A stretch of 64,000 nt of DNA from Daphnia pulex (GCF_021134715.1 NC_060018.1:7333501-7397500); one strand, 5' to 3'. Counted from the stretch's first letter, positions 703-64,000 are shown. The notes: generated from the letters alone by a model not told the origin. Program-made: numbers and translations.

Positions 703-721
703 GAAACAAATGGCAATTCAC

Positions 722-803
722 CGCAGTTGGTAGGGTTCGAACCTACGCCCTCAGAGAGGAATAGATTTCAAGTCTATCGCCTTAACCACTCGGCCACAAC
801 TGC
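722..803 (-). tRNA. tRNA-Ser(TGA), unit 1
   Basis: Serine acceptor for TCA codons. Read on the minus strand: acceptor GCAGTTG pairs with CAACTGC, discriminator G, anticodon loop CTTGAAA on an ATAGA/TCTAT stem, long class-II variable arm as expected for tRNA-Ser, and T arm GTAGG-TTCGAAC-CCTAC. No intron, no encoded CCA. In standard units a run of T on the minus strand (AAAA at 3166-3169 for the next copy) lies about 31 nt downstream and could end Pol III transcription. In this edge copy the downstream sequence is array flank instead. Confidence 0.96.
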
Positions 804-921
804 CCCGATTTTTCAGACAATCTAGTAATAATATTTATTGGTTCACCAATATTTCCGTTTGACCTTACTGAAGAGCAGGTTAAATGAGAGATGCAAAATC
901 CAAGCACTTTCTTTAAGTGTA

Positions 922-1005
922 GGTCGTGTGGCCTAATGGATAAGGCGTCGGACTTCTATGAAAGTAGTTATCCGAAAATTGCGGGTTCGAGTCCCGCCAC
1001 GATTA
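922..1005 (+). tRNA. tRNA-Arg(TCT) with 11-nt intron, unit 1
   Basis: Arginine acceptor for AGA codons. Acceptor GGTCGTG pairs with CACGATT (two G-U pairs), discriminator A, D arm GCCT/AGGC, anticodon stem TCGGA/TCCGA. The loop is CTTCTA-intron-A; the intron TGAAAGTAGTT sits after position 37, the canonical place, and must be removed by the tRNA splicing endonuclease. T arm GCGGG-TTCGAGT-CCCGC. tRNA-Arg(TCT) has an intron in many animals. Unusually, no run of four T follows until 1244, just before the next tRNA gene. Confidence 0.95.
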
Positions 1006-1269
1006 ATAGCATATGACGAAACTATTAGTTCATGATGAGTAGTAGTTAACCACAAACCATGGGGAATCATGTCAGATCAATAAAACTACAAATATATCTC
1101 GAACACTCAATGAATATCACTGGCTTGCATTGCCTTCACAGTGACGATTGAAATTGGCTGCTGATATAGCCTTGCTTGGTAGATACCTTAAATCATTCTC
1201 TCTAAAGACACACAGAGTATACCTAACTGATGATGAATGAACCTTTTATTAATATATTAAGAATTTATT
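1006..1269. other. Spacer Arg-TCT to Ile (standard for all units)
   Basis: 264 bases with no gene seen. It lacks any run of four T until CCTTTTATT near 1243-1249. TGATGA and CTGA motifs occur but not at box C/D snoRNA spacing. Confidence 0.6.
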
Positions 1270-1343
1270 GGCCTGTTAGCTCAGTTGGTTAGAGCGCCGT
1301 GCTAATAACGCGGAGGTCATGAGTTCGATCCTCTTACGGGCCA
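1270..1343 (+). tRNA. tRNA-Ile(AAT), unit 1
   Basis: Isoleucine acceptor; A34 is normally edited to inosine to read ATT/ATC/ATA. Acceptor GGCCTGT/ACGGGCC, discriminator A, D arm GCTC/GAGC, anticodon stem CCGTG/CGCGG, loop CTAATAA. The T arm ATGAG-TTCGATC-CTCTT is weak and has a T-T mismatch at the second pair in every copy seen, unlike the GC-rich T stem usual in animal tRNA-Ile. A TTTT at 1365-1368 is a likely terminator. Confidence 0.95.
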
Positions 1344-1420
1344 CTATAATTCTTTCATTAAATATTTTCCACTCTAAAAAGGAACTGATAGATTCGAAAT
1401 ATTTTGCTAAAATAGTAAAT

Positions 1421-1502
1421 GCAGATATGGCCGAGTGGTTAAGGCGACTGACTCGAAATCAGTTTCCATCTTGGAGCGTAGGTTCGAATCCTACTATCTG
1501 CG
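1421..1502 (+). tRNA. tRNA-Ser(CGA), unit 1
   Basis: Serine acceptor for TCG codons. Acceptor GCAGATA/TATCTGC, discriminator G, anticodon stem ACTGA/TCAGT, loop CTCGAAA, long variable arm, T arm GTAGG-TTCGAAT-CCTAC. TTTT follows immediately at 1503-1506, a textbook Pol III terminator. Confidence 0.96.
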
Positions 1503-2137
1503 TTTTGTGGCATTTTATTGGTAAATGTAACTACACAACATTTGATCAAGTGACGCCAGAAGTTATTTCTAGTCATTTTTTGGGAGAACATCCAAGTTTA
1601 AAATCAGTAGGGGAGTACACAGTGAGAGAAGAACGAAAGGTCTTTAGGTCTTTAGCATATGTGATGGCCCTGGACAAGACAAGACAAACTAAGCAACGGG
1701 GTGACCCTGGATAAGGCATGCTCTCAACAATGGTCCGTACGAGTGGTAAGAACAGTCAGGTCCATCGAAGTCGAGGTCTGTGATCGTAGGCCAGGTTTAG
1801 ATAGTTTCTAAAAGTAGATGAGAGACAACAAGTACACGTTGCCGAGAATGCACCTTACCATCATGACCAGCGTCTTGAATTCAGCGCGTTGTTGCTCCAG
1901 GAACCAGTGAAGACGGCAGAGAAGGATGAGAGAGTCAGAGTTCACCTGTAAAACAGCAGAATAAGTTCCGCTGCCAAGTAATTGTCACTGGCAAAGGTTT
2001 CCAAGTTTAAGCATGCCATTTCAGCGATTTCCCAACACTTGGACCAATGAAAATTTTTGCTTGAAAACAGTAAAACAAAAGACAAGTAATTGCCAATTTA
2101 ACGACGATTTTCGATAATTATAGTTTCGGTTGCTCGC
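1503..2137. other. Spacer Ser-CGA to Arg-CCT, holds exon-like sequence on minus strand
   Basis: 635 bases, less AT-rich than other spacers. On the minus strand it contains an acceptor-like TTTTACAG, 29 open codons, donor-like GTAAGG, a 51-base intron-sized gap ending CTACTTTTAG, then 27 open codons and a stop in matching phase. This may be a captured gene fragment; I do not recognise the peptide. The plus strand is also open for 69 codons without family resemblance. Confidence 0.4.
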
Positions 2138-2210
2138 TACCTCTGGCGAGACTCGAACTCGCAATCCCCGGCTTAGGAGGCCGGTGCCTTATCCATTAGG
2201 CCACAAAGGC
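2138..2210 (-). tRNA. tRNA-Arg(CCT), unit 1
   Basis: Arginine acceptor for AGG codons. Minus strand: acceptor GCCTTTG/CAGAGGT with G-T pairs, discriminator A, anticodon stem CCGGC/GCCGG, loop CTCCTAA, T arm GCGAG-TTCGAGT-CTCGC. Minus-strand T runs at 2072-2080 are the nearest terminators, about 58 nt downstream. Confidence 0.95.
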
Positions 2211-2715
2211 TGAGTTATGGTGAATCTCCTATTCGAGGAATGACGTTATATTGCAAAGCTTTTTCCTAGAAGATAGCCAAACGTCCCATGTTATATAAAC
2301 ATACAGCGATTACCGTCTGTGGACATCGTCTCAATCTTGAAAACCATGTTTTTTGAATAACTTAACTACAAACTCTATTTACAGCTTTCGAGTTCTATAA
2401 CTGGACATACATTTACTATTGCAATTAGTTGTATCAAATATCAAGGCTTTCTACTCTCACAATGAGGGATACTCTTTCTCACTATCTCATTTCATTATTT
2501 GTGTATGTTCCACGACCTATATCCGAATGTACTTCCTTTTGGTTCGCACTTTCTCTACATCGTAGGAATTAACGTAAAGAAACACCATGAGAACTCGTGT
2601 TGTCGTCTATGAACATCTATGAATTCTGCCCATAATGGTGAATGATTTCAAACGATATTAACTTGATAATAAATGGTGGAAAACCAACAATACTAACTAA
2701 AATCAAAAGACTAGC
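2211..2715. other. Spacer Arg-CCT to Lys (standard for all units)
   Basis: 505 AT-rich bases with no gene seen. It contains a TATATAA in a small palindrome (ATGTTATATAAACAT) that is GTATAA in several units. Confidence 0.6.
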
Positions 2716-2788
2716 CGCCCGATAAGGGACTTGAACCCTTGATCTCAGGATTAAAAGTCCCGCGCTCTACCGTCTGAGCTGACCGGGC
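2716..2788 (-). tRNA. tRNA-Lys(TTT), unit 1
   Basis: Lysine acceptor for AAA codons. Minus strand: acceptor GCCCGGT/ATCGGGC, discriminator G, D arm GCTC/GAGC, loop CTTTTAA with anticodon TTT, T arm AAGGG-TTCAAGT-CCCTT. This edge copy differs from the others: the conserved T8 is C and one variable-loop G is A. AAAA at 2706-2709 gives a minus-strand T run 7 nt downstream. Confidence 0.9.
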
Positions 2789-3199
2789 TTAATAATTGGT
2801 ATTGCAATAGTTTTCCGTTCGAGTTCATTTTTAAATTTTACGATTGCTTATAGATCTTTTACGGACGGAAGTACGGACGTTTTTCTATTCTTCGTAAACA
2901 AAATGGGTACACATTCTTTCATCCTATAATTTGTCTCTGACTACATTTTGTGTTTGTAAACTACACTCAAAGACCGCCATAATGCATTTCGGCACTGGTT
3001 CTGAAAAATAGACACGTTTCTGGAAACGCCAAGTAACAGGTCATGGCTCCACGGTTCCGAGATAGATCCCGGGACCTAGGATACCCATGACTGCACAGTT
3101 AATATTTGTAATCATGCGTAAATTTGAGATACTAGTAAACGATTGAAAATGAGTTGTTCCACTAGAAAATACTAGCATGTGAAACAAATGGCAATTCAC
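2789..3199. other. Spacer Lys to Ser-TGA (standard for all units)
   Basis: 411 bases, no gene seen. It contains a cluster of palindromes: GTCATGG (3040-3046) faces CCATGAC (3085-3091) around TCCCGGGA and CCTAGG. It has no tRNA, 5S or U6 resemblance that I can see. Confidence 0.5.
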
Positions 3200-5682: not shown

Positions 5683-5764
5683 CGCAGATGGTAGGGTTCG
5701 AACCTACGCCCTCAGAGAGGAATAGATTTCAAGTCTATCGCCTTAACCACTCGGCCACAACTGC
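5683..5764 (-). tRNA. tRNA-Ser(TGA), unit 3
   Basis: Has the GCAGATGG acceptor mismatch of units 2 and 5. Confidence 0.9.
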
Positions 5765-5882
5765 CCCGATTTTTCAGACAATCTAGTAATAATATTTATT
5801 GGTTCACCAATATTTCCGTTTGACCTTACTGAAGAGCAGGTTAAATGAGAGATGCAAAATCCTAGCACTTTCTTTAACTGTA

Positions 5883-5966
5883 GGTCGTGTGGCCTAATGG
5901 ATAAGGCGTCGGACTTCTATGAAAGTAGTTATCCGAAAATTGCGGGTTCGAGTCCCGCCACGATTA
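5883..5966 (+). tRNA. tRNA-Arg(TCT), intron-bearing, unit 3
   Basis: Gene unchanged; upstream flank reads TTTAACTGTAGG rather than TTTAAGTGTAGG. Confidence 0.95.
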
Positions 5967-6230
5967 ATAGCATATGACGAAACTATTAGTTCATGATGAG
6001 TAGTAGTTAACCACAAACCATGGGGAATCATGTCAGATCAATAAAACTACAAATATATCTCGAACACTCAATGAATATCACTGGCTTGCATTGCCTTCAC
6101 AGTGACGATTGAAATTGGCTGCTGATATAGCCTTGCTTGGTAGATACCTTAAATCATTCTCTCTAAAGACACACAGAGTATACCTAACTGATGATGAATG
6201 AACCTTTTATTAATATATTAAGAATTTATT

Positions 6231-6304
6231 GGCCTGTTAGCTCAGTTGGTTAGAGCGCCGTGCTAATAACGCGGAGGTCATGAGTTCGATCCTCTTACGG
6301 GCCA
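6231..6304 (+). tRNA. tRNA-Ile(AAT), unit 3
   Basis: Same as unit 1 by eye. Confidence 0.95.
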
Positions 6305-6381
6305 CTATAATTCTTTCATTAAATATTTTCCACTCTAAAAAGGTACTGATAGATTTGAAATATTTTGCTAAAATAGTGAAT

Positions 6382-6463
6382 GCAGATATGGCCGAGTGGT
6401 TAAGGCGACTGACTCGAAATCAGTTTCCATCTTGGAGCGTAGGTTCGAATCCTACTATCTGCG
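6382..6463 (+). tRNA. tRNA-Ser(CGA), unit 3 (last gene before deletion junction)
   Basis: Intact gene and TTTT terminator; the spacer stops 15 bases later at the short-unit junction. Confidence 0.95.
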
Positions 6464-6481
6464 TTTTGTGGCATTTGCGGC

Positions 6482-6511
6482 AAATTGCGGGTTCGAGTCC
6501 CGCCACGATTA
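6482..6511 (+). pseudogene. tRNA-Arg(TCT) 3' fragment, unit 4
   Basis: Only the T arm and 3' acceptor strand remain. The join reads GTGGCATTT-GCGGC-AAATTGCGGG: GCGGC matches neither parent, so it looks like filler DNA at a repaired break. About 1.93 kb of the normal unit is absent. Confidence 0.9.
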
Positions 6512-6775
6512 ATAGCATATGACGAAACAATTAGTTCATGATGAGTAGTAGTTAACCACAAACCATGGGGAATCATGTCAGATCAATAAAACTACAAATA
6601 TATCTCGAACACTCAATGAATATCACTGGCTTGCATTGCCTTCACAGTGACGATTGAAATTGGCTGCTGATATAGCCTTGCTTGGTAGATACCTTAAATC
6701 ATTCTCTCTAAAGACACACAGAGTATACCTAACTGATGATGAATGAACCTTTTATTAATATATTAAGAATTTATT

Positions 6776-6849
6776 GGCCTGTTAGCTCAGTTGGTTAGAG
6801 CGCCGTGCTAATAACGCGGAGGTCATGAGTTCGATCCTCTTACGGGCCA
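6776..6849 (+). tRNA. tRNA-Ile(AAT), unit 4
   Basis: Same as unit 1 by eye. Confidence 0.95.
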
Positions 6850-6926
6850 CTATAATTCTTTCATTAAATATTTTCCACTCTAAAAAGGTACTGATAGATT
6901 CGAAATATTTTGCTAAAATAGTGAAT

Positions 6927-7008
6927 GCAGATATGGCCGAGTGGTTAAGGCGACTGACTCGAAATCAGTTTCCATCTTGGAGCGTAGGTTCGAATCCTAC
7001 TATCTGCG
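6927..7008 (+). tRNA. tRNA-Ser(CGA), unit 4
   Basis: Same as unit 1 by eye. Confidence 0.96.
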
Positions 7009-7647
7009 TTTTGTGGCATTTTATTGGTAAATGTAACTACACAACATTTGATCAAGTGACGCCAGAAGTTATTTCTAGTCATTTTTTGGGAGAACATCCA
7101 AGTTTAAAATCAGTAGGGGAGTACACAGTGAGAGAAGAACGAAAGGTCTTTAGGTCTTTAGCATATGTGATGGCCCTGGACAAGACAAGACAAACTAAGC
7201 AACGGGGTGACCCTGGATAAGGCATGCTCTCAACAATGGTCCGTACGAGTGGTAAGAACAGTCAGGTCCATCGAAGTCGAGGTCTGTGATCGTAGGCCAG
7301 GTTTAGATAGTTTCTAAAAGTAGATGAGAGACAACAAGTACACGTTGCCAAGAATGCACCTTACCATCATGACCAGCGTCTTGAATTCAGCGCGTTGTTG
7401 CTCCAGGAACCAGTGAAGACGGCAGAGAAGGATGAGAGAGTCAGAGTTCACCTGTAAAACAGCAGAATAAGTTCCGCTGCCAAGTAATTGTCACTGCCTG
7501 GCAAAGGTTTCCAAGTTTAAGCATGCCATTTCAGCGATTTCCCAACACTTGGACCAATGAAAATTTTTGCTTGAAAACAGTAAAACAAAAGACAAGTAAT
7601 TGCCAATTTAACGACGATTTTCGATAATTATAGTTTCGGTTGCTCGC

Positions 7648-7720
7648 TACCTCTGGCGAGACTCGAACTCGCAATCCCCGGCTTAGGAGGCCGGTGCCTT
7701 ATCCATTAGGCCACAAAGGC
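7648..7720 (-). tRNA. tRNA-Arg(CCT), unit 4
   Basis: Gene unchanged; 4-bp insertion in the preceding spacer. Confidence 0.95.
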
Positions 7721-8226
7721 TGAGTTATGTTGAATCTCCTATTCGAGGAATGACGTTATATTGCAAAGCTTCTTCCTAGAAGATAGCCAAACGTCCCATG
7801 TTATATAAACATACAGCGATTACCGTCTGTGGACATCGTCTCAATCTTGAAAACCATGTTTTTTGAATAATCTTAAGTACAAACTCTATTTACAGCTTTC
7901 GAGTTCTATAACTGGACATACATTTACTATTGCAATTAGTTGTATCAAATATCAAGGCTTTCTACTCTCACAATGAGGGATACTCTTTCTCACTATCTCA
8001 TTTCATTATTTGTGTATGTTCCACGACCTATATCCGAATGTACTTCCTTTTGGTTCGCACTTTCTCTACATCGTAGGAATTAACGTAAAGAAACACCATG
8101 AGAACTCGTGTTGTCGTCTATGAACATCTATGAATTCTGCCCATAATGGTGAATGATTTCAAACGATATTAACTTGATAATAAATGGTGGAAAACCAACA
8201 ATACTAACTAAAATCAGAAGACTAGC

Positions 8227-8299
8227 CGCCCGATAAGAGACTTGAACCCTTGACCTCAGGATTAAAAGTCCCGCGCTCTACCGTCTGAGCTAACCGGGC
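8227..8299 (-). tRNA. tRNA-Lys(TTT), unit 4
   Basis: AAGAGAC instead of AAGGGAC turns one T-stem pair into G-T, which should be tolerated. Same change in unit 20. Confidence 0.93.
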
Positions 8300-8710
8300 T
8301 TAATAATTGGTATTGCAATAGTTTTCCGTTCGAGTTCATTTTTGAATTTTACGATTGCTTATAGATCTTTTACGGACGGAAGTACGGACGTTTTTCTATT
8401 CTTCGTAAACAAAATGGGTACACATTCTTTCATCCTATAATTTGTCTCTGACTACATTTTGTGTTTGTAAACTACACTCAAAGACCGCCATAATGCATTT
8501 CGGCACTGGTTCTGAAAAATAGACACGTTTCTGGAAACGCCAAGTAACAGGTCATGGCTCCACGGTTCCGAGATAGATCCCGGGACCTAGGATACCCATG
8601 ACTGCACAGTTAATATTTGTAATCATGCGTAAATTTGAGATACTAGTAAACGATTGAAAATGAGTTGTTCCACTAGAAAATACTAGCATGTGAAACAAAT
8701 GGCAATTCAC

Positions 8711-18627: not shown

Positions 18628-18709
18628 CGCAGTTGGTAGGGTTCGAACCTACGCCCTCAGAGAGGAATAGATTTCAAGTCTATCGCCTTAACCACTCGGC
18701 CACAACTGC
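18628..18709 (-). tRNA. tRNA-Ser(TGA), unit 9
   Basis: Array consensus. Confidence 0.96.
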
Positions 18710-18827
18710 CCCGATTTTTCAGACAATCTAGTAATAATATTTATTGGTTCACCAATATTTCCGTTTGACCTTACTGAAGAGCAGGTTAAATGAGAGATGC
18801 AAAATCCTAGCACTTTCTTTAAGTGTA

Positions 18828-18911
18828 GGTCGTGTGGCCTAATGGATAAGGCGTCGGACTTCTATGAAAGTAGTTATCCGAAAATTGCGGGTTCGAGTCC
18901 CGCCACGATTA
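18828..18911 (+). tRNA. tRNA-Arg(TCT), intron-bearing, unit 9
   Basis: Array consensus. Confidence 0.95.
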
Positions 18912-19175
18912 ATAGCATATGACGAAACTATTAGTTCATGATGAGTAGTAGTTAACCACAAACCATGGGGAATCATGTCAGATCAATAAAACTACAAATA
19001 TATCTCGAACACTCAATGAATATCACTGGCTTGCATTGCCTTCACAGTGACGATTGAAATTGGCTGCTGATATAGCCTTGCTTGGTAGATACCTTAAATC
19101 ATTCTCTCTAAAGACACACAGAGTATACCTAACTGATGATGAATGAACCTTTTATTAATATATTAAGAATTTATT

Positions 19176-19249
19176 GGCCTGTTAGCTCAGTTGGTTAGAG
19201 CGCCGTGCTAATAACGCGGAGGTCATGAGTTCGATCCTCTTACGGGCCA
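19176..19249 (+). tRNA. tRNA-Ile(AAT), unit 9
   Basis: Array consensus. Confidence 0.95.
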
Positions 19250-19326
19250 CTATAATTCTTTCATTAAATATTTTCCACTCTAAAAAGGTACTGATACATT
19301 CGAAATATTTTGCTAAAATAGTGAAT

Positions 19327-19408
19327 GCAGATATGGCCGAGTGGTTAAGGCGACTGACTCGAAATCAGTTTCCATCTTGGAGCGTAGGTTCGAATCCTAC
19401 TATCTGCG
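19327..19408 (+). tRNA. tRNA-Ser(CGA), unit 9
   Basis: Intact; followed by the short-unit junction. Confidence 0.95.
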
Positions 19409-19426
19409 TTTTGTGGCATTTGCGGC

Positions 19427-19456
19427 AAATTGCGGGTTCGAGTCCCGCCACGATTA
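19427..19456 (+). pseudogene. tRNA-Arg(TCT) 3' fragment, unit 10
   Basis: Same filler junction as at 6482. The flank GATTAGTAG is shared only with the fragment at 34610. Confidence 0.9.
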
Positions 19457-19720
19457 GTAGCATATGACGAAACTATTAGTTCATGATGAGTAGTAGTTAA
19501 CCACAAACCATGGGGAATCATGTCAGATCAATAAAACTACAAATATATCTCGAACACTCAATGAATATCACTGGCTTGCATTGCCTTCACAGTGACGATT
19601 GAAATTGGCTGCTGATATAGCCTTGCTTGGTAGATACCTTAAATCATTCTCTCTAAAGACACACAGAGTATACCTAACTGATGATGAATGAACCTTTTAT
19701 TAATATATTAAGAATTTATT

Positions 19721-19794
19721 GGCCTGTTAGCTCAGTTGGTTAGAGCGCCGTGCTAATAACGCGGAGGTCATGAGTTCGATCCTCTTACGGGCCA
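19721..19794 (+). tRNA. tRNA-Ile(AAT), unit 10
   Basis: Array consensus gene; only 46 bases separate it from the Lys gene because Ser-CGA and Arg-CCT are missing. Confidence 0.95.
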
Positions 19795-19840
19795 CTATAA
19801 TTCTTTCATTAAATATTTTCCACTCTAAAAAGGTACTGAT

Positions 19841-19913
19841 AGCCCGATAAGGGACTTGAACCCTTGACCTCAGGATTAAAAGTCCCGCGCTCTACCGTCT
19901 GAGCTAACCAGGC
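19841..19913 (-). tRNA. tRNA-Lys(TTT) at deletion junction, unit 10
   Basis: The deletion (about 1.33 kb) ends at the first acceptor base, so the discriminator becomes T instead of G and the normal downstream T run is lost. One acceptor C is T (GCCTGGT). Function doubtful. Confidence 0.75.
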
Positions 19914-20324
19914 TTAATAATTGGTATTGCAATAGTTTTCCGTTCGAGTTCATTTTTAAATTTTACGATTGCTTATAGATCTTTTACGGACGGAAGTACG
20001 GACGTTTTTCTATTCTTCGTAAACAAAATGGGTACACATTCTTTCATCCTATAATTTGTCTCTGACTACATTTTGTGTTTGTAAACTACACTCAAAGACC
20101 GCCATAATGCATTTCGGCACTGGTTCTGAAAAATAGACACGTTTCTGGAAACGCCAAGTAACAGGTCATGGCTCCACGGTTCCGAGATAGATCCCGGGAC
20201 CTAGGATACCCATGACTGCACAGTTAATATTTGTAATCATGCGTAAATTTGAGATACTAGTAAACGATTGAAAATGAGTTGTTCCACTAGAAAATACTAG
20301 CATGTGAAACAAATGGCAATTCAC

Positions 20325-20406
20325 CGCAGTTGGTAGGGTTCGAACCTACGCCCTCAAAGAGGAATAGATTTCAAGTCTATCGCCTTAACCACTCGGCCAC
20401 AACTGC
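20325..20406 (-). tRNA. tRNA-Ser(TGA), unit 11
   Basis: One variable-arm change (CCTCAAAGAGG), repeated in unit 14. Confidence 0.93.
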
Positions 20407-20524
20407 CCCGATTTTTCAGACAATCTAGTAATAATATTTATTGGTTCACCAATATTTCCGTTTGACCTTACTGAAGAGCAGGTTAAATGAGAGATGCAAA
20501 ATCCTAGCACTTTCTTTATGTGTA

Positions 20525-20608
20525 GGTCGTGTGGCCTAATGGATAAGGCGTCGGACTTCTATGAAAGTAGTTATCCGAAAATTGCGGGTTCGAGTCCCGC
20601 CACGATTA
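20525..20608 (+). tRNA. tRNA-Arg(TCT), intron-bearing, unit 11
   Basis: Gene unchanged; flank TTTATGTGTAGG, repeated in unit 14. Confidence 0.95.
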
Positions 20609-20872
20609 ATAGCATATGACGAAACTATTAGTTCATGATGAGTAGTAGTTAACCACAAACCATGGGGAATCATATCAGATCAATAAAACTACAAATATAT
20701 CTCGAACACTCAATGAATATCACTGGCTTGCATTGCCTTCACAGTGACGATTGAAATTGGCTGCTGATATAGCCTTGCTTGGTAGATACCTTAAATCATT
20801 CTCTCTAAAGACACACAGAGTATACCTAACTGATGATGAATGAACATTTTATTAATATATTAAAAATTTATT

Positions 20873-20946
20873 GGCCTGTTAGCTCAGTTGGTTAGAGCGC
20901 CGTGCTAATAACGCGGAGGTCATGAGTTCGATCCTCTTACGGGCCA
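20873..20946 (+). tRNA. tRNA-Ile(AAT), unit 11
   Basis: Gene unchanged; upstream GAACATTTTATT. Confidence 0.95.
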
Positions 20947-21023
20947 CTATAATTCTTTCATTAAATATTTTCCACTCTAAAAAGGTACTGATAGATTCGA
21001 AATATTTTGCTAAAATAGTGAAT

Positions 21024-21105
21024 GCAGATATGGCCGAGTGGTTAAGGCGACTGACTCGAAATCAGTTTCCATCTTGGAGCGTAGGTTGGAATCCTACTAT
21101 CTGCG
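21024..21105 (+). tRNA. tRNA-Ser(CGA), B-box variant, unit 11
   Basis: GGTTGGAATCC: the invariant T-loop C56 is G. This base is in the internal B box that TFIIIC contacts and also holds the tRNA elbow, so the copy is probably silent. Confidence 0.75.
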
Positions 21106-21123
21106 TTTTGTGGCATTTGCGGC

Positions 21124-21153
21124 AAATTGCGGGTTCGAGTCCCGCCACGATTA
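21124..21153 (+). pseudogene. tRNA-Arg(TCT) 3' fragment, unit 12
   Basis: Shared filler junction. Confidence 0.9.
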
Positions 21154-44685: not shown

Positions 44686-45202
44686 TGTTGCCGTTCTAAA
44701 GCCCACCAAAAGCGTTCCCCCCAAATTGGATCTGGCAACTCCGCGAGGGGGGTAAGGAAATCGGAGAAGAAGGGCGGAGCTTATCACCACGAGACCAGTT
44801 GGAATCTTTTCGCCGCGCGACACACATCTCCGCTCCGTTTTTTCCTCTCCGTTTCGGCTTCTCCAGCACGTGCAGTTTCTTCCTGGGTCGTCACGTAGCG
44901 TGGCGGCCTTTACGTTCGTACTTATTTAAGTTAATCGTGTGTGTGTATTTTGTGTGTGTGTGCATCCTGAATTGTTGGAGCCCACGACGGGATCTCCTTT
45001 CTGGATTTCATTTTGATTTGTGTCGAGACGCCTGGTTTGGCAGCCATTGTGTTCGTCTCTCGTCCCGATTTTCCGTTTGTGCCTGTGTTATTTGTGTTTA
45101 TTGGCAGGCAACCAGTAGACCCGTTTACAAATACATTGGCTTGACTTAATTGACGTTCCGTTTGTGTCTTTTCCGTCCCGTAACCCGCGTGGTATGGCAA
45201 CA
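44686..45202 (+). repeat. 3' LTR of BEL/Pao element
   Basis: 517 bp, same boundaries and nearly identical sequence to the 5' LTR. Confidence 0.93.
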
Positions 45203-45207
45203 GGTCA
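45203..45207 (+). repeat. Target-site duplication GGTCA, right
   Basis: Matches 38580-38584. Confidence 0.93.
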
Positions 45208-45231
45208 TGAGTTCGATCCTCTTACGGGCCA
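45203..45231 (+). pseudogene. tRNA-Ile(AAT), 3' part, split by BEL/Pao element, unit 21
   Basis: Remaining T arm and 3' acceptor, overlapping the duplicated GGTCA. Confidence 0.95.
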
Positions 45232-45308: not shown

Positions 45309-45380
45309 GCAGATATGGCCGAGTGGTTAAGGCGACTGACTCGAAATCAGTTTCCATCTTGGAGCGTAGGTTCGAATCCT
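45309..45380 (+). pseudogene. tRNA-Ser(CGA), truncated, unit 21
   Basis: Lacks the last 10 bases (ACTATCTGCG), so the acceptor stem cannot form. It is the gene next to the split Ile. Confidence 0.9.
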
Positions 45381-46015
45381 TTTTGTGGCATTTTATTGGT
45401 AAATGTAACTACACAACATTTGATCAAGTGACGCCAGAAGTTATTTCTAGTCATTTTTTGGGAGAACATCCAAGTTTAAAATCAGTAGGGGAGTACACAG
45501 TGAGAGAAGAACGAAAGGTCTTTAGGTCTTTAGCATATGTGATGGCCCTGGACAAGACAAGACAAACTAAGCAACGGAGTGACCCTGGATAAGGCATGCT
45601 CTCAACAATGGTCCGTACGAGTGGTAAGAACAGTCAGGTCCATCGAAGTCGAGGTCTGTGATCGTAGGCCAGGTTTAGATAGTTTCTAAAAGTAGATGAG
45701 AGACAACAAGTACACGTTGCCGAGAATGCACCTTACCATCATGACCAGCGTCTTGAATTCAGCGCGTTGTTGCTCCAGGAACCAGTGAAGACGGCAGAGA
45801 AGGATGAGAGAGTCAGAGTTCACCTGTAAAACAGCAGAATAAGTTCCGCTGCCAAGTAATTGTCACTGGCAAAGGTTTCCAAGTTTAAGCATGCCATTTC
45901 AGCGATTTCTCAACACTTGGACCAATGAAAATTTTTGCTTGAAAACAGTAAAACAAAAGACAAGTAATTGCCAATTTAACGACGATTTTCGATAATTATA
46001 GTTTCGGTTGCTCGC

Positions 46016-48372: not shown

Positions 48373-48387
48373 CCCTTTATCGACCGC
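48373..48387. repeat. piggyBac left terminal inverted repeat
   Basis: CCCTTTATCGACCGC; pairs with the right end (CCCTTTTTCGACTG when complemented), one internal mismatch before the ends diverge. Confidence 0.9.
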
Positions 48388-48435
48388 CACAAAAGCGATG
48401 GTCGGATTCGATTGAATGCTCGATCGAAATATCAT

Positions 48436-48457
48436 TGAGTGGTCCTAAGACCACTCA
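48436..48457. repeat. Subterminal hairpin 1 of piggyBac
   Basis: TGAGTGGTC-CTAA-GACCACTCA, 9-bp arms. A second hairpin, AAAAAATCGGA-ATA-TCCGATTTTTT, follows immediately. Confidence 0.75.
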
Positions 48458-48575
48458 TTAAAAAAAAAATCGGAATATCCGATTTTTTCCGGCCTAACCG
48501 CGTTTCGGCCACCGTTGTCCCGACAGGAATGTCCCTTCAGGCGGACATGGTCTCTAAAAAGAGACACTTTTTTCG

Positions 48576-48667
48576 ACTCGAGCCGTCTAGCGGGACAAAA
48601 AATTTGTCCCGACAGTTGCATGCAACTACCACTTGTTCAAATTTTTGTCCCGACAGACGGCTCGAGT
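48576..48667. repeat. Subterminal long inverted repeat of piggyBac
   Basis: About 30-bp arms (48576-48606 and 48638-48667) built from ACTCGAGCCGTCT and GGGACAAAAA words, around the palindrome GTTGCATGCAAC. Each arm contains the TGTCCCG word found elsewhere near both ends, so it may be a transposase-binding region. Confidence 0.8.
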
Positions 48668-48949
48668 TTTTTTCGTCATATTTGTCCCGAGAGACTTTTG
48701 CCGTTTAATGTGCCTCTTGTGTCCCGTCAGGCGGGCTTGACTCTCATTCACCTGGCAGAATGAAAGGCGCCCCGCCTGACGTTGAGGTCTTTACCATCGA
48801 CCAGGGGTCTTTCCAGTCGACGGCTCCTTATGAAAAGGAATAGGATCTCTAATTAGAAAAGTCAGTCAGATCCTTCGTCGGTCACCACTCTGGCAAGTAG
48901 CCGCACTTTAGAGTAAAAATGCACACTGACGTACGAACAAAACACAAAT

Positions 48950-51825
48950 TTATTGCTGAAATTCATCATATTCATCAATTACAAATCCATCACGGTCTTG
49001 GAAATCATCATAATCGTCAATCATATAGCCTTCACGTCGGTTAGAATATTCTGGCTCGTCGGAATCAGCGGATGAAGAAGAACACTCCTTGTTGGTTGGC
49101 TCATGGTCAGAAGCTTGGCCGTCTGATTCCTCCAAAGCGGAATAGACAGCTTCCACCTCGTCCAGCGGAGCCTCCTCAGATGTGTAATTATCATCGTGAA
49201 ACTCGACAAAGCAATTTCTCTTCTTCCCGAGGCACAAAAACACATTACATTGTTTGCACTTTGAGAATGGTCTTGATTCCAATTTGTTGGGTTTCGTTGC
49301 CTGGCACCACTCGCACCTGCCTCTCGCCTCCCCAAAGATGGGTAGATGGTTGCCCACACAAGTTAACCGAATGTCGTCCCTTACACTCAGTCGACTTTTC
49401 CGCCGCTTTGCTCCTGGTTCAGCGGAAGGGTGAATGGTTGGCATCATTCGCCCGGCTCGACCAGCTTTGGTTTTATTTTCGTTCAGGGCGTGGGACAAAA
49501 GACCCATCGTGACGTTCCGTTTGAACTCGAGAAACGGCATCTGAACTTCGTAATTCTCCAGATAATTTTCCTCGACCTAAGTCAAGAAAAAAACGGAAAT
49601 TATTGTGTGTTTAAAGTTTTAATTTCCGCCATCTGTGATCTCACCATATCATTGAAGCATATCCAGCTGTTCACCAGACATGTCTCCAAGAGAGAGTATA
49701 AGAGACGGTGCCACCATTTTTTGGCTTTACGGTCTCTCTCGTAGTAAGAACGCAGCTGGTTCGCCGTGTCTACACCGCCCATGTTATTGACGTAATCGTC
49801 AATAGCCTTTGGACAAGACTTGGATCGGAACGAACCATCACGCTGCTTTCTCCTGACCTTGACAATATCTGAGCCGTGATAGTTGGAAGCGACCCGAAAC
49901 GCCTTAGTGTCTCTCCATACGAAGATTCCCTTTCGGCATGTTCCGGGCTCACCACCGAACTTGGCTGCAAATTCGTCCGGCCGCAGGTTCGACTCATTCT
50001 TCGTCATGATGGGCTGGTTGACCCGACTTGGAAGAATCGTTCCAACGGCGTTGACACCATTCTCGCGGAGCTTGTCCAAGAGGGCAATGCTCGTAAAGAA
50101 CCGGTCAAAGGCCACTACGAAACCTTGATCTGTCAGGGGTTGACAAAGATCAACGACAACTCTCTCCACCGCCTCGTTATTACGAGATCTTTTTTGCTTT
50201 TCCCCAAAGCGAGCTCCTTGATAGATCTCAAACTTATAGGTATACCCACGATGGCAACAGCGGCTCCAAATTTTGAAACCAGACTTGATCGGTTTGTTCT
50301 TCATCGTCTGCCTCAGCATTGAGCGGCCTTTGTATTTGACCATAGACTCGTCGATGCTCTGACCCCTAGGAGGCTTTCTACACTCATGATAGCGTTCATT
50401 GAGTCTTTTGACCAGAGGACGGATCTTACGGATAGGATCCGGTCGCTCTGGCTCCTGATCCGGGTCGTCAGAATTAGGGTCAACATCATCCCATGGGCTT
50501 GCGCAAGCTATGTGTTTAGAAATGAATTTGAATCGCTCGCGAGTCATGGCCTGTTGAATTATTCCGAGCCCGAGACCAGTGTCTGGTTGCTGCTCCCAGA
50601 ACATCGACAGCTCGGGCAGACGGTGATATCCGATCAAGAACTGTATGCCAAAGAAGGCTATAAGTTCGTGGTCTGTGACAAAACCTCCAGCAGGCAACCG
50701 CGGGCCGATTAACCTGCCTTCAGGCTTGCCACCCACTTTTCGAGACGGTGGCGTCTTCCTTGAATTCCAGAATTCAGCGATGTAGTCATTTGTTGCCTCC
50801 CGAAGAAGGTACAAAGTGTCCTCACCACCAAGCATCGTCTTGAAAACTCCGAGGGGACTCGAAAAACGACTGAATTGACTCAACACGGGGCCTGGTTCTT
50901 CTAGGGGTGCAAACTGAATTGCCCTTTCCTGGAACTGAGGCCTCGGTGAATCATCATCAGCCCGTGATTGTCTCCCAACGTCGCCCCAGACTTTGCATTC
51001 TTTCCAATTCCGGTTGACGGCTTTATGTTGGGCGACTTTTTTGGCATCGGCCTTCTTTTGCATGTTCAGCTTGGCCGAATCTGAGTTCGTTTTTTTGGCC
51101 AGCCGGAACGGATGCGCTGTAAGAACGCGAGGCCCACGACACCTCAAAGTCGCGTTCGTGAGACCGACCTTTTTCCCTGTGTAGTGCCGTGTTACTTCAC
51201 CATCGGGATCGGCCGTTTCAGAAGAAGACCCTGCACTAGTTGGTCTTCGGGTCTGACTTCTGGTTCGTTTTGGTGGGGAGGAGCCACTCTTTGAACTGTC
51301 TTCACGTTCCTTTCTTTTTTTCGCTTTTTGAACTCTTTTGAGTCTTTGAAGCGTCGCCGGTGATAGTTCCAATCGTTCAAGTTGAACTGTAACGTCTTTC
51401 GGGGTTAATGGATCTACCACCGGCTCCTCTTCTTCTGTCCCAGCTTTTTGTTCATCATCCTCTGAGGCAGATTGTTCATCCTCTATTTCCGGATCCTGAT
51501 CAAGTTCCGGCCGCTGCGAAGCAACCAACTCCTGACCAGGCTCCTCATCCGGCTTCTCAACCGGCTCCTCGACCGGCTCCTCGACCGGCTCCTCGACCGG
51601 CTCCTCGACCGGCTCCTCGACGGCAACCGCCTCCTCCTCCTGATCTTGAGCCTCCGGTACAGTATCAAAATTGATTACCGGCTCTTGATCTCCAGCTAAA
51701 CGTTCTCTTTCTTCTTTCAGCTGCCTCCTTTTTAATACAGCTGCGGCGGCGGCATTCTTGGCTGAATTTTTCACGGCTCTCGACTTAGTATATCTTGGGT
51801 CTCTCTTTTTTTTATTTTTCGCCAT
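48950..51825 (-). CDS. piggyBac transposase (two exons)
   Basis: Cuts and pastes the element at TTAA. Exon 1 is 51825-49645 (727 codons) and exon 2 is 49576-48950 (208 codons plus stop), 935 aa, phase-consistent. The N-terminus is basic (MAKNKKKRDPRY), then an acidic linker with repeated EEPV units (residues 69-92), and an NLS-like KRTRSQTRR. The DDE domain starts near 325; the catalytic triad is D492 (QSIDESMVKYKGR), D574 (VVAFDRFFTS) and D686 (NNMGGVDTANQ), followed by WW704-705. After the splice the chain reads NSWICFNDM-VEENYL and reaches the C-terminal cysteine-rich zinc domain (CEWC, CKQC, FLC, NCFVEFH), then an acidic tail ending with two similar GYMIDDYDDFQ / GFVIDEYDEFQ motifs. No stop or frameshift was seen and the triad is intact, so it could be active. 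At about 935 aa it is longer than classic piggyBac (about 594 aa) because of the N-terminal and tail extensions. Confidence 0.93.
49577..49644 (-). other. Intron in piggyBac transposase gene (68 nt)
   Basis: Donor ATG|GTGAGA at 49644 and acceptor TTGACTTAG|GTC at 49577 with a T-rich tract before it. Without splicing the frame stops 14 codons into the intron; with splicing the C-terminal zinc domain is attached in frame. Confidence 0.88.
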
Positions 51826-51836
51826 TTTTAATCAAT

Positions 51837-51860
51837 CTGAAAATACAGAATCGAAAAAAA
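51837..51860 (-). other. Probable 5' UTR splice acceptor of transposase gene
   Basis: On the minus strand a T-rich tract ends TTCTGTATTTTCAG just 11 bases upstream of the start codon. This suggests the promoter and first exon lie further up, in or beyond the repeats. The donor was not identified. Confidence 0.5.
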
Positions 51861-51884
51861 AGGCACGATTAGTCTTTGTGAATT

Positions 51885-52110
51885 CGGCAAAAGGATAACG
51901 AATTGCCTTACGTCCTAAGCCTTATATGACGGTCTTATTTTATCATGCAGGGGAAAAGCATGCACATGCAGGAGTTACCGGGGCTGATTCTTATCCAGCG
52001 CCTTTCACCGCCTTTCGGAGTTTCCTCACGAGACAGCAGTAATCAACGCACGGATAAGAAAGTACAAGAGGCTTTGTGTAAAATTTAATTACACGGGCAC
52101 TAATAGCGCC
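51885..52110. repeat. Upstream module, copy 1 (diverged duplicate at 53515-53730)
   Basis: Words shared in order with 53515-53730: CCAAAAGGAT-like, ATGCAC, TTATCCAGCGC, ACGGGCAC. The two copies are clearly related but diverged, so the duplication is old. Confidence 0.6.
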
Positions 52111-52148
52111 TCGAAGACTTCAAAATCAATTCAAAAGAACCGTTGGAC

Positions 52149-53227
52149 GGAAAGGAGCTCAGCTACGATGGAAATGAAACTACAACCAACGCCGAACCGG
52201 ACACTCCCAATTCTTTGTCTTCGTTTCATTCCACAAAGCACCCCTTCGATACCAAAGTTTTTGCGTCGAAGCTACTAAAGAAATTTCGCGCTTTCTCTTC
52301 GCCTCTTTCGCCTTCCCTTCGATATCTATCCAACCACCGGCTTCAAATTCAATTGAACCCTTTTTTTGTATTTAATGTATCGCGGACACTTAAGTCGCGC
52401 GGCACCCAGATAGGAATAAAAATAAATAAGGAGCGTCGGGCGGAAAGGAGCTTTGCCACGGAGGAAATGAAACTACAACCAACGCCGAACCGGACACTCC
52501 CAATTCTTTGTCTTCGTTTCATTCCACAAAGCACCCCTTCGATACCAAAGTTTTTGCGTCGAAGCTACTAAAGAAATTTCGCGCTTTCTCTTCGCCTCTT
52601 TCGCCTTCCCTTCGATATCTATCCAACCACCGGCTTCAAATTCAATTGAACCCTTTTTTGTATTTAAGGCATCGCGGACACTTAAGTCGCGCGGCACCCA
52701 GATAGGAATAAAAATAAATAAGGAGCGTCGGGCGGAAAGGAGCTTTGCCACGGAGGAAATGAAACTACAACCAACGCCGAACCGGACACTCCCAATTCTT
52801 TGTCTTCGTTTCATTCCACAAAGCACCCCTTCGATACCAAAGTTTTTGCGTCGAAGCTACTAAAGAAATTTCGCGCTTTCTCTTCGCCTCTTTCGCCTTC
52901 CCTTCGATATCTATCCAACCACCGGCTTCAAATTCAATTGAACCCTTTTTTTGTATTTAAGGCATCGCGGACACTTAAGTCGCGCGGCACCCAGATAGGA
53001 ATAAAAATAAATAAGGAGCGTCGGGCGGAAAGGAGCTTTGCCACGGAGGAAATGAAACTACAACCAACGCCGAACCGGACACTCCCAATTCTTTGTCTTC
53101 GTTTCATTCCACAAAGCACCCCTTCGATACCAAAGTTTTTGCGTCGAAGCTACTAAAGAAATTTCGCGCTTTCTCTTCGCCTCTTTCGCCTTCCCTTCGA
53201 TATCTATCCAACCACCGGCTTCAAATT
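52149..53227. repeat. Tandem repeat, about 292-bp unit, nearly four copies
   Basis: Units begin at the word GGAAAGGAGCT at 52149, 52442, 52734 and 53027 (periods 293, 292, 293). The last copy is cut near 53227. Copies are almost identical, so the amplification is recent. They sit upstream of the transposase start and could carry enhancers or a promoter; open frames within are compositional. Confidence 0.93.
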
Positions 53228-53514
53228 AATTTCATTCGACTACACGGACCGGAATGGAATAAAAATACCGCCTGGAAAAAAACTATTTAGAACTGACACT
53301 TCCCGTTCTGTTTTCGCTAATTCCCAGGGGAATTCATTACAACCACCCCTTCAATTTTCTTTCATCCGTGTAGACCAGTTCATTTCTGACATCTCTAACC
53401 GGCCAGTCTGCTCTGGCTTAATCGAATTTGCACCCGGCTTTAGGATAAATTAGGAGCCAATTCACGAGACATTCGTCTCTACGCCACTTCCAAAAAACTC
53501 TTAGGACTTTATTT

Positions 53515-53730
53515 TTGATTGCCATAAGGCTTCTATATTGGCCAAAAGGATCCAATTTTCGACGGTCTCCTCATGCTGGGACATGCATGCACATTCAAGA
53601 ATACGGGGTTTGTTTCTCATCTTATCCAGCGCTTTTCACATCTGCCGCAGATTGCCGCACATTTGTGACCAACGCACAGAAAAGACGAGACAAGAGGCAT
53701 TGCTGACCACCCAACGGGCACTATAAATCC
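53515..53730. repeat. Upstream module, copy 2
   Basis: Diverged relative of 51885-52110; see there. Confidence 0.6.
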
Positions 53731-54486
53731 GGAAAGATTTCTGGTTGAATCAGGATCATTTCTAGGCGGCCCAAAACCCGGCAATCGGGCAAATGAATCG
53801 GAGTTACTCTTGTATTGGAAAGATTACTAGGTTTTTAAGTTTCATCAGTATTCGAACAAAAAGTTCAGCAGGATGAATTGCACCGTTCGTCTATTATTTT
53901 GTCTTCCACAAGCTCGCATTCATCCAAGTCCCGGCAACGACGTCACTACCCCGTCGTCGGAACTTGGCAAGGTTCGATTTTTCAAGACTCGGCGCCTGGC
54001 GCATTCGCCCGGTACTGCAATGGGCACGGGGACCAGCCCAAATAATCGTGTTAGGAGTTATCTGCCAAAACGCTTTCGTCTCTGATTCGAACCATTCACC
54101 GACCGCTTCGACCATATCCATCATTTAAAACCATTACGCGAACTGTGTACAGACTCGTCTTGGACCGGTGAGTAGAACACGAAAGATGAATACTACTAAG
54201 ATTCGAATTGGGAATGAACTCTCCTCTTTTCGTCCCCAATCTTTCGCTTTGCTGTTCCATCGGTAATCCAGGAAGAATTAACAATACCATCACCATCAGG
54301 TATCCACTTCCTGATTAAGCAACCGACTTTCGAGACTTCCTAGGGTAAAATTGCTTTCGCGGGTCGATACCCTCGTCTCTCTCATAATCTTTCGGTTCGG
54401 ATTTATATCTTCCGGCCGTAGACAGGTGGGTACTATAAAAAGACCGAGAAGCGATGCAACGGAATCGAAACTGAATTCATTTGAAG
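53731..54486. other. Unassigned piggyBac interior
   Basis: No gene recognised. It contains ACTATAAAAAGACC near 54432, a TATA-box-like word. A 70-codon plus-strand frame at 53873 has no family resemblance. Confidence 0.4.
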
Positions 54487-54610
54487 CGGCGGGTAGGTTA
54501 AGGAGCTCTGGCCACGAGGAATGAAACTAGTAACCCCGAATCGGACACTTCTGATTCTTCGTTTTTGACCCATTCCAACAGAGCTCCCCATCCAAACACA
54601 ACTTCGAATT
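54487..54610. repeat. Strongly diverged copy of the 292-bp repeat
   Basis: GGAGCTCTGGCCACGAGGAA followed by GAATCGGACACTTCTGATTC resembles the start of the 292-bp unit, with many changes. Confidence 0.6.
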
Positions 54611-54675
54611 CATTTCTTTCACCCGCCATGCTCTCGAACTCATATATGCCCGTGCGGAATCAAAATAAAACCAAT

Positions 54676-54885
54676 TGATGGTCGGAAAGAAGCTCAGCTA
54701 CGATGGAAATGAAACTACAACTAACGCCGAACCGGACAACTTCCCATTCTGCGTCTTCGTTCCATTTCCCAAAGCTCCCCGTCAATACCAAAGTTTTTGC
54801 GTCGAAGCTACTAAAGAAATTTCGCGCTTTCCTTTTCGCCTCTTTCGCCTTCCCTTCGATATCGATCCAACCATCGCTCGATCCC
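54676..54885. repeat. Diverged partial copy of the 292-bp repeat
   Basis: Shares a long stretch including AAGTTTTTGCGTCGAAGCTA with the tandem units but differs at many sites. An older copy of the module that was later amplified at 52149-53227. Confidence 0.85.
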
Positions 54886-55189
54886 ATTTCTTTCGACCGC
54901 GCCTGCCTGGCTGGTCAGCTCTACTTCTTTGTTTTTTTTTTTTTAAATGAGGAACACAAATAAAACCTCACAATTTCTGACATCTCTAACCAGGGCGGTT
55001 GGTTCCCTTTTATCAAATATCTACTAAGCGCCGGCATCACTAATTCTGACTCCTGAAATGATCCTACTAACGAAATGAACCGAATTTCAGATCATCCCAG
55101 TGCACGTTACACTAGGAGCTCACCACTGATCAATACTTGAAAAAGTGCCCAACCGCCTGGCGGTTCAAATCTGGCCGGCTTTTGATAAA

Positions 55190-55551
55190 ATTGCAGCCGC
55201 CTGGAGGGACATATCTGGCGGAGACTTATATGTCCCGACAGTCCAGATCGAAGGTTCTCGATTAGACTTCGATCAGAGCCGCCTGACGGGCCAGAAATGT
55301 CCCGTCACCGAAAACTCGGTAAAACACGAGAAATACTCGTTTTAATTTCTCCTCCTTTTTATCATTGAAAGACGGTAGGTCAATTAATTTTTCGTTGTAA
55401 GGCAATTCAATTCTGTAGGATGGATTTCGAGATATCAGCTTTGATAGGTATGAATTTAGCCGATTTGAAATCTCTCGTGTCTGTGGACGAGGTCCCGCCA
55501 GACCCTACTGAAAGCCGTCGAAAAAAAAACGTCCCGTCAGTCGAAAAAGGG
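55190..55551. repeat. Right subterminal region and terminal inverted repeat of piggyBac
   Basis: Contains several TGTCCCG-type words (near 55232, 55301, 55493, 55531) mirroring those of the left end, then CAGTCGAAAAAGGG at the border. Confidence 0.75.
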
Positions 55552-56401: not shown

Positions 56402-56501
56402 NNNNNNNNNNNNNNNNNNNNNNNNNNNNNNNNNNNNNNNNNNNNNNNNNNNNNNNNNNNNNNNNNNNNNNNNNNNNNNNNNNNNNNNNNNNNNNNNNNN
56501 N
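56402..56501. other. Assembly gap, 100 N
   Basis: A run of exactly 100 N, the usual placeholder for a gap of unknown size. Array units on its two sides are in opposite orientation, so the order and orientation here depend on scaffolding. Confidence 0.99.
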
Positions 56502-61908: not shown

Positions 61909-61990
61909 GCAGATATGGCCGAGTGGTTAAGGCGACTGACTCGAAATCAGTTTCCATCTTGGAGCGTAGGTTCGAATCCTACTATCTGCG
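61909..61990 (+). tRNA. tRNA-Ser(CGA), unit 25
   Basis: Array consensus. Confidence 0.96.
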
Positions 61991-62625
61991 TTTTGTGGCA
62001 TTTTATTGGTAAATGTAACTACACAACATTTGATCAAGTGACGCCAGAAGTTATTTCTAGTCATTTTTTGGGAGAACATCCAAGTTTAAAATCAGTAGGG
62101 GAGTACACAGTGAGAGAAGAACGAAAGGTCTTTAGGTCTTTAGCATATGTGATGGCCCTGGACAAGACAAGACAAACTAAGCAACGGAGTGACCCTGGAT
62201 AAGGCATGCTCTCAACAATGGTCCGTACGAGTGGTAAGAATAGTCAGGTCCATCGAAGTCGAGGTCTGTGATCGTAGGCCAGGTTTAGATAGTTTCTAAA
62301 AGTAGATGAGAGACAACAAGTACACGTTGCCGAGAATGCACCTTACCATCATGACCAGCGTCTTGAATTCAGCGCGTTGTTGCTCCAGGAACCAGTGAAG
62401 ACGGCAGAGAAGGATGAGAGAGTCAGAGTTCACCTGTAAAACAGCAGAATAAGTTCCGCTGCCAAGTAATTGTCACTGGCAAAGGTTTCCAAGTTTAAGC
62501 ATGCCATTTCAGCGATTTCTCAACATTTGGACCAATGAAAATTTTTGCTTGAAAACAGTAAAACAAAAGACAAGTAATTGCCAATTTAACGACGATTTTC
62601 GATGATTATAGTTTCGGTTGCTCGC

Positions 62626-62698
62626 TACCTCTGGCGAGACTCGAACTCGCAATCCCCGGCTTAGGAGGCCGGTGCGTTATCCATTAGGCCACAAAGGC
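62626..62698 (-). tRNA. tRNA-Arg(CCT), variant, unit 25
   Basis: GGTGCGTTATCC changes one D-stem base, creating a mismatch in the A-box region. Confidence 0.87.
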
Positions 62699-63204
62699 TG
62701 AGTTATGTTGAATCTCCTATTCGAGGAATGACGTTATATTGCAAAGCTTTTTCCTAGAAGATAGCCAAACGTCCCATGTTATATAAACATACAGCGATTA
62801 CCGTCTGTGGACATCGTCTCAATCTTGAAAACCATGTTTTTTGAATAATCTTAACTACAAACTCTATTTACAGCTTTCGAGTTCTATAACTGGACATACA
62901 TTTACTATTGCAATTAGTTGTATCAAATATCAAGGCTTTCTACTCTCACAATGAGGGATACCCTTTCTCACTATCTCATTTCATTATTTGTGTATGTTCC
63001 ACGACCTATATCCGAATGTACATCCTTTTGGTTCGCACTTTCTCTACATCGTAGGAATTAACGTAAAGAAACACCATGAGAACTCGTGTTGTCGTCTATG
63101 AACATCTATGAATTCTGCCCATAATGGTGAATGATTTCAAACGATATTAACTTGATAATAAATGTTGGAAAACCAACAATACTAACTAAAATCAAAAGAC
63201 TAGC

Positions 63205-63277
63205 CGCCCGATAAGGGACTTGAACCCTTGACCTCAGGATTAAAAGTCCCGCGCTCTACCGTCTGAGCTAACCGGGC
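63205..63277 (-). tRNA. tRNA-Lys(TTT), unit 25
   Basis: Array consensus gene; upstream flank shortened (CTTAATGTTGG). Confidence 0.96.
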
Positions 63278-63687
63278 TTAATGTTGGTATTGCAATAGTT
63301 TTCCGTTCGAGTTCATTTTTAAATTTTACGATTGCTTATAGATCTTTTACGGACGGAAGTACGGACGTTTTTCTATTCTTCGTAAACAAAATGGGTACAC
63401 ATTCTTTCATCCTATAATTTGTCTCTGACTACATTTTGTGTTTGTAAACTACACCCAAAGACCGCCATAATGCATTTCGGCACTGGTTCTGAAAAATAGA
63501 CACGTTTCTGGAAACGCCAAGTAACAGGTCATGGCTCCACGGTTCCGAGATAGATCCCGGAACCTAGGATACCCATGACTGCACAGTTCATATTTGTAAT
63601 CATGCGTAAATTTGAGATATTAGTAAACGATTGAAAATGAGTTGTTCCACTAGAAAATACTAGCATGTGAAACAAATGGCAATTCAC

Positions 63688-63769
63688 CGCAATTGGTAGG
63701 GTTCGACCCTACGCCCTCAGAGAGGAATAGATTTCAAGTCTATCGCCTTAAACACTCGGCCACAACTGC
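63688..63769 (-). tRNA. tRNA-Ser(TGA), damaged, unit 26
   Basis: Three changes: an acceptor G-T pair, T54 to G in the B box (GGGTCGAAC), and D-loop GTGTTTAAGG for GTGGTTAAGG in the A box. Both internal promoter boxes are hit, so it is likely a pseudogene. Confidence 0.6.
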
Positions 63770-63887
63770 CCCGATTTTTCAGACAATCTAGTAATAATAT
63801 TTATTGGTTCACCAATATTTCCGTTTGGCCTTACTGAAGAGCAGGTTAAATGAGAGATGCAAAATCCTAGCACTTTCTTTAAGTGTA

Positions 63888-63971
63888 GGTCGTGTGGCCT
63901 AATGGATAAGGCGTCGGACTTCTATGAAAGTAGTTATCCGAAAATTGCGGGTTCGAGTCCCGCCACGATTA
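63888..63971 (+). tRNA. tRNA-Arg(TCT), intron-bearing, unit 26
   Basis: Array consensus; last complete gene in the window. Confidence 0.95.
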
Positions 63972-64000
63972 ATAGCATATGACGAAACTATTAGTTCATG

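Follow-up and report, generated by a model that had tools for sequence, protein, structure and literature searches.

What maintains a long run of near-identical transfer RNA (tRNA) genes in an animal genome, and is such a run more than repetitive DNA? These questions are raised by a stretch of the Daphnia pulex genome (GCF_021134715.1 NC_060018.1:7333501-7397500), analyzed here in its full length of 64,000 nucleotides and referred to below as the window. Almost all of it is occupied by a 2,479-bp unit with six tRNA genes, repeated in tandem about 20 times. We consider it highly probable that this is a nuclear eukaryotic tRNA tandem array, transcribed by RNA polymerase III and kept alike by exchange between its units, with a possible benefit through tRNA dosage.

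A six-gene tRNA unit in about 20 copies

tRNA genes were called across the window with ARAGORN, in a bacterial-mode run and in a run allowing introns. The 124 genes found equal exactly the number of full-length genes given in a preliminary description of this DNA, and Rfam reports 126 tRNA matches, namely these 124 plus two damaged genes. The gene order of the unit is Ser-TGA(-), Arg-TCT(+), Ile-AAT(+), Ser-CGA(+), Arg-CCT(-), Lys-TTT(-), so that several different tRNA genes, in fixed order and together with their spacers, are repeated head-to-tail. The preliminary description had correctly recognized a unit of about 2.48 kb with six genes on both strands: canonical units measure 2,477-2,483 bp and carry three genes on each strand. 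Its figure of about 50 kb of array sequence is also close to the 49.4 kb or so that we measured, counting neither the two inserted elements nor the gap nor the left flank. The number of units, however, had been overestimated. Instead of at least 25, there are about 20, both from the 18-24 copies of each gene (Table 1) and from the division of 49.4 kb by 2,479 bp, which gives 19.9. The first 702 positions of the window are not array sequence; the array begins mid-unit and its right end is still running at the last position. It may also extend leftward, past an insertion at the left edge. Within the window it is interrupted by a long terminal repeat (LTR) element, a piggyBac transposon, a run of N, and an inverted segment.

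Chance is not a serious explanation for this arrangement, because whole units align at 98.6-100% identity and the 124 intact genes score 52.4-70.7 bits against an Rfam threshold of 29. The gene at unit position 201-284 appeared as "tRNA-???" in bacterial mode and as Arg-TCT with an 11-nt intron once introns were allowed; a degenerate gene was therefore rejected as its interpretation in all 20 copies. This intron and the lack of an encoded CCA in the array genes indicate eukaryotic nuclear genes. The unit has a GC content of about 40%, and the observed/expected CpG ratio of the spacers (0.86) speaks against a vertebrate genome with heavy CpG methylation. By its sequence alone, the array would most likely be assigned to an invertebrate animal. 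In the window, only tRNA families passed the Rfam thresholds. In an exploratory scan limited to one unit, the spacers gave no other credible match. Matches below threshold, for example Vault (23.5 bits where 34 is required), coincide with tRNA genes and were put down to chance. Exact sequence patterns of the tRNA genes had no counterpart in viral or GTDB contigs.

Table 1 Coordinates of the array, its units and genes, and the features that interrupt it
Feature	Position	Strand	Details
tRNA tandem array	703..64000		about 20 copies of the 2,479-bp unit
Reference canonical unit	722..3199	+	2,478 bp, Ser-TGA to next Ser-TGA
tRNA-Ser(TGA)	722..803	-	first of 20 copies
tRNA-Arg(TCT)	922..1005	+	first of 20 copies; 11-nt intron
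tRNA-Ile(AAT)	1270..1343	+	first of 24 copies; ARAGORN end at 1344
tRNA-Ser(CGA)	1421..1502	+	first of 22 copies
tRNA-Arg(CCT)	2138..2210	-	first of 18 copies
tRNA-Lys(TTT)	2716..2788	-	first of 20 copies
Unit of type D	5683..8710	+	3,028 bp; internal 545-bp duplication
Unit of type X	18628..20324	+	1,697 bp; 545-bp duplication and deletion of positions ~671-1995
Doubled two-unit block (D+C)	20325..31330	+	two tandem copies of 5,503 bp, zero differences
Interrupted tRNA-Ile, 5' part	38535..38586	+	last 8 bp are AGGTCATG
LTR retroelement	38587..45201	+	6,615 bp
Interrupted tRNA-Ile, 3' side	45202..45225	+	opens with the second copy of AGGTCATG
Degraded tRNA-Ser(CGA)	45309..45390	+	3' end deleted; 46.9 bits in Rfam, no ARAGORN call
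piggyBac-type transposon	48373..55551	-	7,179 bp
Assembly gap	56402..56501		exactly 100 N
Inverted unit segment	56503..58357	-

Variation and probable exchange between units

Measured from one Ser-TGA gene to the next, 12 units are 2,477-2,483 bp long (type C, canonical), three are 3,024-3,028 bp long (type D), and two are 1,697 bp long (type X). Two others are lengthened by insertions to 9,098 bp and 11,646 bp, and the last unit runs off the window. From left to right they run C C D C C C C X D C D C C X C; next come one unit interrupted by the LTR element and one that contains the piggyBac transposon together with the gap and the inversion, and then C, C, and the partial unit. In type D, a 545-bp duplication holds the Ile-AAT and Ser-CGA genes; type X combines the same duplication with a 1.3-kb deletion that joins unit positions 670 and 1996. 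The duplication has the same junction in all five units that carry it (at 6476, 19421, 21118, 26621, and 34604). The deletion junction is likewise identical in both X units, and the second of these (33811-35507) differs from the first at 3 of 1,697 sites. Around the doubled D+C block, a perfect repeat of 5,946 bp (19911-25856 and 25414-31359) shows no difference where about 46 would be expected at background divergence. Either unequal crossing-over produced it very recently, or it was duplicated in the assembly.

Pairs of the 12 canonical units differ on average by 19.3 mismatches in 2,479 bp (0.78%, or 99.2% identity; range 0-34). In a four-gamete test, all four combinations are present in 34 of 153 informative site pairs, a frequency of conflict that argues for exchange between units; recurrent mutation is a less likely source at this divergence. 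Units that lie farther apart in the array are only slightly more divergent (Mantel r 0.20-0.30, P 0.03-0.10). Taken together, the identical junctions in non-adjacent units, the perfect repeat, and the conflicts in the four-gamete test indicate that units have undergone unequal exchange and conversion. Judged from such within-array patterns, the copies appear to have been homogenized, and the array seems to bear the marks of concerted evolution. The preliminary description had proposed a process like that of ribosomal DNA (rDNA), and the shared junctions, the conflicts, and the near-identity of the units all support this proposal.

Are the genes themselves held more constant than the DNA between them? 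Across the 12 full canonical units, variable sites occupy 25 of 470 columns in tRNA genes (53/kb) and 78 of 2,014 in spacers (39/kb; P=0.16). When the unit at 13670 is left out, the counts are 20 of 472 and 71 of 2,012 (P=0.50), with gene edges shifted by two columns between the two tests. No purifying selection on single tRNA copies was detectable in this comparison of gene and spacer variability. Since the tRNA genes vary as much as the spacers, it would be homogenization, and not detectable selection on each copy, that keeps the copies alike. Single copies within the array appear to drift at about the rate of the spacers. Most simply, high copy number makes each of them dispensable; it is also possible that a raised mutation rate in transcribed tRNA genes offsets selection. 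The number of variable sites ranges from none in Arg-TCT and one in Ile-AAT to 11 in Ser-TGA (six without the unit at 13670). Three quarters of the genes (93 of 124, 75%) have the commonest sequence of their own kind, and identical copies make up 19 of 20 for Arg-TCT and 23 of 24 for Ile-AAT. The Ser-TGA copy at 13670-13751 stands apart: its changes are clustered and its score of 52.4 bits is the lowest of any intact gene, whereas single changes are found elsewhere.

Inserted elements, gap, and inverted segment

The element within the tRNA-Ile gene is an LTR retrotransposon, with paired LTRs of about 514 bp (2 mismatches between them) and an 8-bp target-site duplication, AGGTCATG. It may be of BEL/Pao type; elements of that type usually leave a duplication of 4-6 bp, shorter than this one. 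A long open reading frame (ORF) of the element is cut by one in-frame stop at 43010-43012, and the sole domain hint is a weak match to DUF1759 (24 bits, under the Pfam cut-off of 25.4). No reverse transcriptase was found in its two long ORFs. The transposon insertions in the array are young, and this element is possibly non-autonomous. A tRNA-targeting retroelement was considered, given the position inside a tRNA gene, and was set aside, as a single insertion cannot establish specificity.

The second element lies in the spacer between Ser-CGA and Arg-CCT. It has the TTAA target duplication of a piggyBac transposon, inverted termini (CCCTTT(A/T)TCGAC), and a full DDE_Tnp_1_7 domain in an ORF at 49600-51831(-). 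Two transposases of solved structure are related to it, piggyBat (9c0f) and that of 6x67, and a search of GTDB contigs for this transposase gave no match. In the interior of the element, a 293-bp sequence is repeated four times in tandem (52128-53305), and a diverged fifth copy lies near 54663-54876. Downstream of the transposase, a 208-aa open frame at 48953-49576(-) has a weak, sub-threshold zinc-ribbon match and may be the C-terminal part of the transposase.

The inverted segment next to the gap differs from the forward unit at 58980-60834 at only 2 of 1,855 sites, compared with 9 or more for the other units. It is likely a fold-back at a contig end, the alternative being a real inverted duplication. 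At the left edge of the window, an open frame at 1-354(-) has a Cys/His pattern that, by eye, is suggestive of a BED-type zinc finger and a hAT transposon; this frame has no Pfam match.

Rival readings and comparison with known arrays

If the array is expressed, RNA polymerase III would transcribe each tRNA gene on its own, using the gene's internal A and B boxes. Unequal crossing-over and gene conversion would set the copy number and hold the units alike, as in rDNA. Any benefit would most likely be a balanced, high dosage of the six tRNAs, and broken individual copies would be tolerated because there are so many. All six genes of the unit have an internal structure suited to polymerase III, and in four of them a T4 run is found within 30 bases downstream. 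Several points weigh against this account. No T4 terminator occurs until +57 after Arg-CCT and +238 after Arg-TCT, so that the account does not explain termination at these two genes; the variability test covers only 12 units, with few sites for each gene; and assembly may be partly responsible for the gap, the inverted unit, and the perfect two-unit repeat. Both Arg genes share a 9-mer, CGAAACTAT, located 9-11 bases downstream (unit 285-344 and 1357-1416; for example, 1006-1065 and 2078-2137). Common ancestry of the Arg-gene flanks or an unusual terminator are possible explanations of this motif.

The reading that competes best with an expressed array, which we nevertheless hold to be unlikely, is that the array is real and is a neutral or selfish macrosatellite, silent or weakly transcribed, with the tRNAs supplied mainly from elsewhere. 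The precedent for silencing is the Ser-Tyr-Tyr cluster of Arabidopsis, which is silent in most tissues (PMC12308677), and by analogy such silence would be a serious rival here. tRNA genes no less variable than spacers, transposon insertions, one of them inside a tRNA gene, and two Arg genes without a near T4 terminator would all suit a macrosatellite. Against this reading, a good tRNA fold is retained by every one of the 124 genes, with at least 52 bits each. The near-invariance of Arg-TCT and Ile-AAT also weighs against it, although homogenization alone could produce this.

tRNA genes bind TFIIIC and can serve as barriers, and the array might accordingly be a boundary, insulator, or nuclear-organization element, a role that we regard as improbable. 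This has been proposed for the human 1q23.3 repeat, which contains CTCF sites (PMC4041453); in the Daphnia window no flanking genes are visible. Very unlikely, in our view, is a specialized battery of Ser, Arg, and Lys tRNAs that could meet the needs of a tissue or stage in which proteins rich in these residues are made, an idea that resembles the one proposed for the Arabidopsis Ser-Tyr-Tyr cluster and extensins. Five of the six unit genes belong to this class (Ser-TGA, Ser-CGA, Arg-TCT, Arg-CCT, and Lys-TTT), with P ~0.004 by chance for a class picked post hoc and an assumed isoacceptor share of 11/46. Finally, we give hardly any credence to an assembly artefact in which one or a few units were multiplied or mis-joined, for although the 100-N gap, the inverted unit so close to its neighbor, and the perfect 5,946-bp repeat would fit it, most units have their own substitutions (7-34 differences in all canonical pairs but one), along with indels of their own and distinct insertions flanked by proper target-site duplications, features that artefactual duplication would not produce.

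The preliminary description had named Xenopus laevis and Entamoeba as precedents and called such arrays unusual among animals. The precedents for tandem multi-tRNA units are sound, but the rarity was stated too strongly, as arrays have been published for human, Hydractinia, Nematostella, Phytophthora, and Arabidopsis. The Xenopus laevis repeat reportedly has a 3.18-kb unit of eight genes, a gene set unlike that of the Daphnia unit. It is similar in being a tandem repeat of tRNA genes in an animal; its arrayed genes are oocyte tRNA genes (PMC11500080), and oocyte-specific expression is known in that case.

Tandem tRNA arrays were formerly held to be peculiar to Entamoeba (PMC2652664; also the 2010 survey, PMC2888827). 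Like the Daphnia array, those of Entamoeba consist of tandem units, with up to five tRNA genes, that are uniform within an isolate and for which concerted evolution was proposed (PMC2652664). In contrast to Daphnia, nearly all Entamoeba tRNA genes lie in arrays, in some cases with 5S RNA, and in E. histolytica and E. dispar the genes are separated by short tandem repeats (PMC2652664), whereas none were found in the Daphnia array spacers. In Phytophthora infestans, tandem tRNA arrays were also put down to unequal crossing-over, and the tRNA gene number was confirmed by read depth; the units there hold one to three genes in 513-850 bp in the examples given (PMC9584435), compared with six genes in 2,479 bp. 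A tandem tRNA array is also known from Arabidopsis, as the Ser-Tyr-Tyr cluster (PMC12308677).

Among animals, Nematostella has more than 17,000 tRNA genes and pseudogenes, 89% of them clustered, in clusters of fifty and more (PMC2888827). Teleost fishes have large tRNA clusters (PMC2888827, PMC11075544), and zebrafish chromosome 4 is tRNA-rich (PMC11075544). For Hydractinia echinata and H. symbiolongicarpus, tRNA tandem arrays have been reported in a paper that mentions Nematostella too and calls the organization unusual, which makes the Daphnia array worth recording; the Hydractinia arrays hold tRNAs for all 20 amino acids (PMC11067881), unlike the six tRNA genes of each Daphnia unit. The human 1q23.3 array resembles that of Daphnia in its multi-tRNA unit, its use of two strands, its near-identical copies, and the presence of LTR elements, in the human case at the edges. 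It comprises 9-43 units at 98% identity, each with five tRNA genes, of which Leu and Gly lie on one strand and Glu, Gly, and a fifth gene on the opposite strand (PMC4041453). Its unit of 7.3 kb, with 64% GC and CTCF sites, differs from the 2.5-kb Daphnia unit with about 40% GC and another gene set.

As a well-resolved array, the Daphnia locus offers snapshots of array evolution: duplications and deletions that several units share, the recent amplification of a two-unit block, and transposon insertions. It should be useful for measuring how tRNA dosage is kept up by homogenization instead of by selection acting on the genes one by one. Although no six-gene, two-strand unit of this kind was found in the publications consulted, the Daphnia array is a new example of a phenomenon already described in these other organisms and not a new class.

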